Origin: Candidatus Ruthturnera sp.
Lineage (GTDB): Bacteria; Pseudomonadota; Gammaproteobacteria; PS1; Pseudothioglobaceae
Assembly: GCA_018648985.1 (NCBI GenBank)
Contig: JABGOT010000084.1
Coordinates: 1,470 to 34,479, forward strand
Length of the DNA: 33,010 bases
Direction of reading: 5' to 3'
This document shows, piece after piece, positions 15,844 through 19,558 of this stretch. A model generated the notes under the pieces. The model did not search any database and was not told the DNA's origin. It saw only the letters and a program-made list of their open reading frames with translations. How positions within the stretch are numbered: position 1 is the stretch's first letter; every line of letters starts with the position of its first letter. Both the position numbers and the translations under genes were made by a program.

Positions 15844-17214
15844 ATGAGTAACAATACTCTAAACAATAACGATTATAAAGTTGCCGATATGGCATTGGCT
15901 GATTACGGCCGTAAAGAAGTAGAACTGGCCGAAGCTGAAATGCCAGCATTAATGGCGTTACGTACCAGCTACCGTGACACGCAACCCTTAGCAGGTGCTA
16001 AGATTTTAGGTTGTATTCACATGACCATTCAAACTGCTGTACTAATGGAAACTTTGGTTGATCTTGGTGCCGAAGTGCGCTGGTCAAGTTGTAATATTTT
16101 CTCAACTCAAGATCACGCAGCAGCAGCGATGGTGGCAGCAGACATTCCAACTTTTGCTTGGAAAGGTGAAACGGAAGAAGAGTTCTTGTGGTGTATTGAA
16201 CAAACGATTTTGTCTGATGGCAAACCTTGGGATGCCAATATGGTGCTTGACGATGGTGGTGATTTAACGCAGATGCTGCATGAAAAATACCCTGAAATGT
16301 TGAATGATATTCACGGCATTAGTGAAGAAACTACAACTGGCGTTCACCGCTTACTTGAAATGATGGAAGAAGGCACTTTAAAAGTACCAGCCATTAACGT
16401 AAACGACTCAGTCACAAAATCAAAAAATGACAACAAATACGGTTGTCGTCATTCATTAAACGATGCGATCAAGCGTGGCACTGACATGCTTATGTCAGGC
16501 AAAAAAGCACTGGTTATCGGTTATGGCGATGTGGGCAAAGGCTCAGCACAGTCGCTTCGTCAAGAAGGCATGATTGTTAAAGTATCTGAAATTGATCCAA
16601 TCTGTGCCATGCAAGCTTGTATGGATGGGTTTGAAATTGTATCACCTTATAAGCAAGGTAACAACACCGGTAAAACTGACGATATCAATAAGCGTTTACT
16701 AGCAACAACTGATCTTATCGTTACCACTACAGGCAACTACAATGTTTGTGATAATGCTATGCTACAAACGCTTAAAGCAGGCTCTGTGGTCTGTAATATT
16801 GGCCACTTCGATAATGAAATTGATACGCAATACATGCGTGACAATTGGCGTTGGGACGAGGTAAAACCTCAGGTTCACCGTGTATTCAGAACTGAGAATA
16901 AAAACGATTACTTGATCTTGCTATCTGAAGGTCGCTTGGTTAACTTAGGTAACGCAACTGGCCACCCTTCGCGCATTATGGACGGCTCATTTGCCAATCA
17001 AGTATTGGCACAAATGCATTTATTCGATGCTAAGTTTGCTGATTTGGGTGGTGACATCTATGTAGAAGTACTACCGAAAAAACTTGATGAAGAAGTAGCC
17101 GCTGGTATGGTTGGTGGCTTTGGTGGTGTGTTAACAACACTAACTGATGTTCAGGCTGATTACATCAATGTAAGTAAGGAAGGTCCATTTAAGCCAGAGT
17201 CTTATAAGTACTAG
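15844..17214 (+). CDS. ahcY: adenosylhomocysteinase
   Basis: [47 protein letters not shown], terminal FKPESYKY. Confidence 0.98.
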
Positions 17215-17401: not shown

Positions 17402-18394
17402 ATGCAAGATTTAATCAATCCAATTTTCCAATCACCAGAAAACCTTGAATCTGCCTTTGTTGATGGCTTAGACAATATGCTAGCCCAAGACGAACTTGGT
17501 GTTTTTATTTTAGTGTTGGCTAACGCACTATTTGACGACAAACTTTGGAAGTTATTAAAACCAAAATTAATCAAAAAATTTGAACACCTAAAATCTCAGC
17601 CTATTACTGGTGCAGATGACGATGTCGCTGTATTTAACAAACTCATTAAGCTTGACTTAAACGAACTGGAAGTCACCAAATGGCGTGAGATCGGTGGTTT
17701 CGAGGTACAATATAATCCACTACGAGCATTACGCCCACAACGACTATCTGGTGCCAAAACTCAGGGGATGAATGCTGAATTTGATGAAAATGGCTTTCAC
17801 TTTAACAAACCGTTTTTACAAAAAGAAATATTCTGGTCTGGGCAATTTTTCTCCAAAAATGTTTCATTGTTTTACAACAAGTTTCCTTTTGCTAATTTTC
17901 ACGGATTGGTTGTGGTTGAAAGTGAAAAACAACATCCACAACTATTAACTTATGAACTACATCAATTTGCTTGGATGATGACCAACACGGTGTCGCTTAA
18001 TATTCCTGGTTTTTCACTGGCTTATAATGCTTATGGTGCTTATGCGTCAGTCAACCATTTTCATTTACAATGCTTTGTTAGAGACAAAGCATTGCCGATT
18101 GAAAATGATGAAAAATACCCGCTGGTTAATTACACATTTCAAAGTGTTGGTGACGCCTGGGAATTCATTGAAGCACTGCATCGAGATGAGCAACCTTATA
18201 ACTTAGTTTATCAAAATAACAAAATTTTGTGCGTGGTTAGGCAACGCCAAGATGATTACACACATGCCGATTGGACGGCGGGTTATGCCTGGTATGAGGC
18301 TTGTGGCGGTGTGAGTACGTTTGATTTAGACAGTTTTAACAACCTCAAAGAGTTAGATTTGAAAGAAGAATTGCTAAAATTAAAAATAACTTAG
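17402..18394 (+). CDS. HIT-fold nucleotidyltransferase/phosphorylase-like protein
   Basis: 330 aa; GYNAYGAYASVNHFHLQCF-like segment (NHFHLQ = HxHxQ motif), FANFHGLVVVE, similar in layout to GalT/GDP-hexose phosphorylase (VTC2-like) branch. Confidence 0.6.
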   Translation: MQDLINPIFQSPENLESAFVDGLDNMLAQDELGVFILVLANALFDDKLWKLLKPKLIKKFEHLKSQPITGADDDVAVFNKLIKLDLNELEVTKWREIGGFEVQYNPLRALRPQRLSGAKTQGMNAEFDENGFHFNKPFLQKEIFWSGQFFSKNVSLFYNKFPFANFHGLVVVESEKQHPQLLTYELHQFAWMMTNTVSLNIPGFSLAYNAYGAYASVNHFHLQCFVRDKALPIENDEKYPLVNYTFQSVGDAWEFIEALHRDEQPYNLVYQNNKILCVVRQRQDDYTHADWTAGYAWYEACGGVSTFDLDSFNNLKELDLKEELLKLKIT

Positions 18395-18430
18395 TAATTT
18401 AGTAGATTACTTAAAATCGTTTTTTTTTTT

Positions 18431-18439
18431 TGCTATAAT
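18431..18439 (+). promoter_or_regulatory. extended -10 promoter TGCTATAAT
   Basis: TGnTATAAT after a T12 tract; start predicted at ~18446, first base of a perfect-spaced hairpin. Confidence 0.65.
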
Positions 18440-18445
18440 GGCTCC

Positions 18446-18573
18446 ATTGTTAAAAAGTCATGTTTTTAATAATACAGCTAGAAGGCTTAATATCTCCATA
18501 TATTATTTAACTGCCTTTTAGTTTTTTGGGGGTTTAAATTTAATTCTTCTCGGCTTTTAATCAAAGCCCCCAT
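18446..18573 (+). ncRNA. candidate structured RNA or glyQ leader with three consecutive hairpins
   Basis: HP1 ATTGTTAAAAA-gtcatg-TTTTTAATAAT; HP2 CTAGAAGGC...GCCTTTTAG; HP3 TGGGGG...CCCCCA; no plausible ORF; own promoter. Confidence 0.5.
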
Positions 18574-18658
18574 CTTTTAACTCTAAAGCTCTTTTCAAAT
18601 AAGTCATATACGCGCTATTGATGCGGTAAAATTTTTTGTTATTTTTCCTAAATTTCGT

Positions 18659-19558
18659 ATGTCAATTTCAGACTTAGATGCAACTGCATCGTTTCAAAAT
18701 TTAATCTTAAAATTACAGTCATTTTGGGCATCCAAGGGTTGTACATTACTACAGCCATTTGATATGGAAATGGGTGCAGGTACGTTTCACCCCGCCACTT
18801 TTTTGCGCGCCATTGGTCCTGAGCCGTGGAAAGCCGCTTATGTTCAGCCTTCTCGCCGCCCTACTGATGGGCGCTACGGTGAAAACCCAAACCGCCTTGG
18901 GCATTATTATCAATTTCAAGTATTACTTAAGCCTTCGCCTAAAGACATTCAAGATCTTTATTTAGAGTCTTTAACTGAGATTGGTATTGACCTCACCATG
19001 CACGATGTGCGTTTTGTGGAAGACAATTGGGAGTCGCCAACACTTGGTGCTTGGGGTTTGGGTTGGGAGATCTGGCTAAACGGCATGGAGGTTTCTCAAT
19101 TTACTTATTTCCAACAAGTCGGCGGCCTGCCTTGTAAACCAGTTGCCGGTGAGCTTACTTATGGATTGGAGCGCTTAGCTATGTATCTGCAAGGTGTTGA
19201 CTCTGTGTTTGACTTAGTGTGGGTAGAAGGTGTGAGTTACGGTGATGTATTCCATCAAAATGAAGTAGAGCAGTCAAAGTACAATTTTGAAATTGCAGAT
19301 ACTGATGTATTATTTAGACAGTTCGATGAAGCAGAAGCCATGAATGAAAAACTGATAGAAGAGTCGCTGCCTTATCCTGCTTACGAACAAGTAATGAAGG
19401 CATCGCATTTTTTCAACCTACTTGATGCACGCCATGCGATTAGCGTGACTGACCGTGCAAGGTTTATTCGCCGTGTACGTGCCATGAGCCAAAAAGTCGC
19501 GCAAGCGTATTATGATTCTCGTGAAGCACTGGGTTTTCCAATGTTGGAGAAAAAATAA
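18659..19558 (+). CDS. glyQ: glycine--tRNA ligase alpha subunit
   Basis: [69 protein letters not shown]. Confidence 0.98.

Follow-up and report, generated by a model that had tools for sequence, protein, structure and literature searches.

A probable small RNA gene with three covarying hairpins and two C/U-rich loops upstream of glyQ

What occupies the space between a 330-aa ORF and glyQ in this 33,010-nt stretch of DNA (the window, part of contig C55 in the 1.07-Mb draft genome G000): a free-standing RNA gene or the leader of glyQ? Comparison with relatives indicates that it is very probably a structured sRNA gene, most likely a free-standing one, belonging to a new family (no Rfam match) of a known kind, the trans-acting sRNAs. 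No ORF of at least 60 aa is present at the locus, in line with the first-pass annotation. The features, in window positions, are the following.

17402..18394, + strand: upstream ORF of 330 aa, from the ORF list, kept across the family
18411..18439, + strand: predicted RNA promoter, TTAAAA, 17-nt spacer with T tract, extended −10 TGCTATAAT
18443..18576, + strand: whole structured RNA, covariance model match of 137 bits
18446..18473, + strand: hairpin 1, 11 pairs
18476..18523, + strand: hairpin 2, 11 outer pairs
18491..18501, + strand: hairpin 2 loop, UAUCUCCAUAU, with the anti-Shine-Dalgarno core CUCC at 18494–18497 (proposed seed 1)
18527..18572, + strand: hairpin 3, G-rich/C-rich stem of 9 outer pairs, then ATCTTTT
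18544..18551, + strand: hairpin 3 loop, UUCUUCUC (proposed seed 2)
18620..18638, + strand: glyQ promoter-like motif GATGCGGTAAAATTTTTTG, −10-like TAAAAT at 18627–18632, between the RNA and glyQ (GATGCGGTAAAATTTTT)
18659..19558, + strand: presumed glyQ, glycyl-tRNA synthetase alpha subunit, 299-aa ORF, downstream neighbour

The 299-aa ORF is presumably glyQ, a name taken over from the earlier reading and from general knowledge, and was located in 81 of 83 genomes of the family, whose gene content suggests SUP05/Thioglobus-like marine sulfur oxidisers. The upstream neighbour had been labelled a HIT-fold gene; this label finds no support, as neither Pfam (E ≤ 0.001) nor NCBIfam (E ≤ 1) assigns the 330-aa ORF to a family.

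The promoter scan pairs the extended −10 motif TGCTATAAT (18431–18439), present as first claimed, with a TTAAAA at 18411 across a 17-nt spacer (10/12 matches). The start predicted from it, at about 18446, coincides with the first base of hairpin 1, again as proposed. Comparison of the regions upstream of glyQ shows that the T tract and TGCTATAAT are retained in most relatives. Across the promoter (18396–18439) a run of 8–15 T separates the −35 position from the extended −10, and a T run followed by TATAAT occurs once in genome G028 and once in the searched part of G003, both times at the RNA. The 3′ end is less sharply defined (uncertain, about 18572–18580) and carries no strong terminator; a terminator-like scan match falls on the apical part of hairpin 3, which with the ATCTTTT that follows possibly forms a weak terminator. 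Transcription from this promoter to such an end would yield an RNA of about 130 nt (135 nt were folded).

The predicted RNA folds with a free energy of −33.2 kcal/mol, compared with −18.9 ± 3.2 kcal/mol for dinucleotide shuffles (z −4.41; none of 200 as good). All three hairpins of the first-pass annotation were recovered: hairpin 1 with its 11 bp, hairpin 3 with nine outer pairs, and the 11-pair outer stem of hairpin 2. The inner UAAUAU/AUAUUA pairing of hairpin 2 is formed in most relatives but absent from the window's own minimum free energy structure. Covariation points to the same structure. In a model-fitted alignment, which is biased towards the structure, compensatory changes affect 24 of 42 pairs and no shuffle out of 500 equals any measure, figures that are not probabilities because the shuffles leave kinship in. 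In that alignment 92.4% of cells are paired, and this drops to 42–52% when partners are slid by 1–3 columns. The changes are distributed over hairpin 1 (9 of 11 pairs, five of them also in a plain, sequence-only MAFFT alignment), the outer stem of hairpin 2 (7 of 11) and the modelled outer pairs of hairpin 3 (5 of 7). Across copies, G–U pairs outnumber A–C mismatches by 52 to 6; the + strand is therefore the RNA, and an RNA on the opposite strand was rejected. Predicted promoter, covarying structure and strand thus mark the element as a separate gene for a structured RNA.

A cmscan search against Rfam, the check proposed with the first annotation, was run over the whole window and, at relaxed E, over 18390–18670; no family reaches its gathering score at the locus, the best E value being 0.26. 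The earlier reader had recognised no 6S, T-box or glycine riboswitch there, and T-box and glycine riboswitch are ruled out by the lack of an Rfam match at the locus. 6S RNA is one long bulged rod. Like the RNA described here, 6S (RF00013) is a structured RNA with a gene of its own and of comparable length; it differs from the three hairpins in shape, has no match at the locus, and the genome's own 6S lies elsewhere (G000:C1:10177-10358).

When 57 genomes were searched with the DNA sequence, matches to the region came from the same genus and from a small number of further genera in the family. The full element was located 5′ of glyQ in 13 genomes, which hold 14 copies and represent four genera, all of one family (G000, G001, G003, G005, G006, G007, G008, G017, G024, G028, G096, G097 and G102; the fragmented bin G008 contributes two copies). 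Trained on eight copies from two genera, a covariance model recovers the remaining ones at the glyQ position with E values of 2e-6 to 6e-16; in genera g2 and g5 it detects none. G015 retains hairpins 2 and 3, which a deletion has fused to the start of the upstream ORF, with the promoter gone; G098 and G101 hold decayed remnants, and no element is present upstream of glyQ in G002, G004, G011, G032 and G100. A second model run against 369 genomes of the class, under strict filters that scored few candidates, returns only the window's own copy. Since matches are limited to the family and absences and remnants occur within it, the RNA looks confined to this family and repeatedly lost. The G015 deletion (L007/L033) also removes most of hairpin 1 and apparently arose across a short TTTGATGA-like repeat; it captures the RNA while it is being lost. 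Weak model matches in G077 (L076) and G015 (L078) are chance-like, and a promoter-like match in G021, considered as a relocated copy, was rejected because the ORF behind it is unrelated. Searching the family for the loop motifs gave many chance matches and no second copy.

The first-pass annotation proposed either a stand-alone sRNA or a leader for glyQ. As a cis-regulatory leader, the hairpins would be part of a 213-nt glyQ 5′ leader that senses glycine, tRNA or another signal, and wherever the RNA occurs, it does lie immediately 5′ of glyQ and points the same way. However, glyQ has its own promoter-like motif, which is retained in the RNA-less relatives L010, L018, L019, L044 and L050; this argues for a free-standing sRNA gene and against a glyQ leader. 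The leader reading is also at odds with the missing T-box and glycine riboswitch matches, with the lack of a clear expression platform beside the start codon and with the fold z-score, which falls to −2.7 once the sequence is extended to glyQ. It is thus improbable, and the sRNA half of the original proposal is the one retained, on account of the separate glyQ motif. The simplest and most likely reading of the sequence is that the RNA and glyQ are two adjacent units, with read-through from the RNA into glyQ that may occur. The segment just before glyQ (18620–18658) is short and U-rich, has no evident Shine-Dalgarno (TTTTTTGTTATTTTTCCTAAATTTCGTATG) and is kept across genera.

How might such an RNA act? 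Among the 14 copies the stems change and the loops UAUCUCCAU (hairpin 2) and UUCUUCUC (hairpin 3) hardly vary; in the former, TATCTCC and the following CAT are nearly invariant. Both loops are complementary to Shine-Dalgarno cores. We propose that a free-standing sRNA gene produces an RNA of about 130 nt from its own predicted promoter, that hairpin 1 would shield the 5′ end, and that hairpins 2 and 3 would display the two C/U-rich loops. These would base-pair with Shine-Dalgarno regions of target mRNAs, beginning with CUCC on GGAG, and so block ribosome entry. The candidate targets are an exported sulfur-globule-like protein gene, which is the best one, and a further gene whose product is of the same class. 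Blocking of Shine-Dalgarno regions by the loops is a fairly probable mode of action, and we hold with moderate confidence to the explanation as a whole, in which sulfur-globule-like genes are the best candidate targets of an sRNA with its own promoter.

Mechanistically, the closest known counterparts are the Neisseria sRNAs NmsRA and NmsRB (NgncR_162/163), by a likeness in layout and mode rather than by demonstrated homology. They likewise combine three stem-loops with two C/U-rich anti-Shine-Dalgarno regions, which pair around the Shine-Dalgarno of several mRNAs (PMC5362039). The RNA described here differs from them in sequence, genus and promoter. It is single copy, whereas NmsRA and NmsRB are tandem siblings, and both of its anti-Shine-Dalgarno regions lie in loops, whereas one of theirs lies between stem-loops 1 and 2; the NmsR targets are TCA-cycle genes, compared with the sulfur-globule-like candidates here. 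In Helicobacter pylori, RepG works by a C/U-rich loop and without Hfq. The RNA described here would resemble it in that both are sRNAs that use complementarity to act on the leader of an mRNA. The RepG site is a G-repeat in the tlpB leader (PMC8295292), in contrast to the proposed Shine-Dalgarno region, and the sequences are unrelated.

Candidate targets were sought in all of G028 and in 671 kb of G003, using crude ORF calls and 475 orthologue pairs with consistent starts; the ranks given here refer to G028 and that part of G003 rather than to the window's own genome. ATGGAGATA is found in two of 1516 start regions of G028, and both genes encode exported Asn/Gly/Phe-rich proteins; ATGGAGA is held by the same two protein families in G003. 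The best G028 candidate, of 111 aa (MKKLLAIALVAASLSANAFFNNNDMPW..), matches perfectly over 13 nt and comes first of 1516 once accessibility is corrected for. Its leader reads ATATGGAGATAAGACAATG in G028 and TTTTTATGGAGATAATACAATG in the window's own genome. For the other gene, also sgp-like, the same correction gives no better than rank 24. No Pfam family matches the candidate proteins, and NCBIfam gives weak repeats only, below cut-off. They are called sulfur-globule-like because of their composition, signal peptide and tandem paralogues and because of the report on ‘Ca. Thioglobus autotrophicus', which has four putative sgp genes and in which three Sgp proteins differ in expression between oxic and anoxic growth (PMC6509183). 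Exported Asn/Gly-rich proteins (MKKIIAITTLVAATSASAFFGNNNNNGW..) are also encoded near G028:C1 ~134288-136500 and at 736999, by several nearly identical paralogues that share the leader AATAATCTAGGAGATTAAC across genera and lack ATGGAGATA.

Pairing of each loop with the leader from its own genome, calculated for 13 genomes (the truncated RNA of G015 included, G008 left out), gives −11 to −25 kcal/mol and is better than with swapped partners; p is 0.0006 when kinship is ignored, and the rank is 1 to 5 of 24 at one genome per genus. In G024, loop and leader have changed together (CCAUGUAU with AUACAUGG). The same data must be weighed against a second reading, that of a trans-acting anti-Shine-Dalgarno sRNA with other targets, for which the sulfur-globule-like match would be chance on a common GGAG core. 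The target statistics are modest enough to suit it: a match of 13 nt is attained by shuffled loops in 9 of 200 trials (20 of 300 if the core is preserved), and in two genomes 13 of 128 alternative cores perform equally well. The leader motif moreover persists in RNA-less genomes (G002, G004 and genus g2), and loop 2 is better matched by others, its best conserved match being a sulfide:quinone-reductase-like gene, with counts not clearly above those of shuffled loops. Chance sits less easily with the fact that both ATGGAGATA genes of G028 belong to one protein class and with the pairing signal between own and swapped partners. Other targets come close to an even chance; that the sulfur-globule-like genes are the true targets is a tentative proposal, somewhat short of even.

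Compact hairpins with nearly invariant loops would also fit a protein site, and the RNA could be a decoy or part of a ribonucleoprotein whose loops are kept for a protein instead of an mRNA. The preference of loops for their own leaders would then be unexpected, and 6S RNA, as noted, sits elsewhere in the genome. A CsrA decoy in particular was rejected, since the window's copy has no GGA and CsrA has no match in G028 or the searched part of G003. We regard a protein-binding role as unlikely. With E. coli queries, tblastn finds no credible homologue of Hfq, CsrA or ProQ in the complete G028 or in the 671 kb of G003, and the control queries IF-1 and HU are found there by the same search; a weak Hfq-like fragment in G003 was rejected, its frame holding no credible Hfq ORF. 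Returning to the anti-Shine-Dalgarno sRNA, the most specific form of the proposal, in which an Hfq-independent, family-restricted RNA covers the ribosome-binding sites for sulfur-globule coat proteins and thereby sets their levels, is conceivable and rather doubtful.

Our literature search found no paper that deals with small RNAs of SUP05/Thioglobus or with their part in the formation of sulfur globules. The structure of the RNA is clear, its proposed seeds hardly vary and the target prediction is concrete; if the predicted target is true, RNA regulation would be tied to sulfur storage, and the control of that storage in largely uncultured sulfur oxidisers would become directly testable. Elsewhere in the window, an SAH riboswitch (RF01057; 15752–15822, 44.5 bits, E 2.8e-5) lies after metK and directly 5′ of an ahcY-like ORF at 15844, an ordinary known arrangement.
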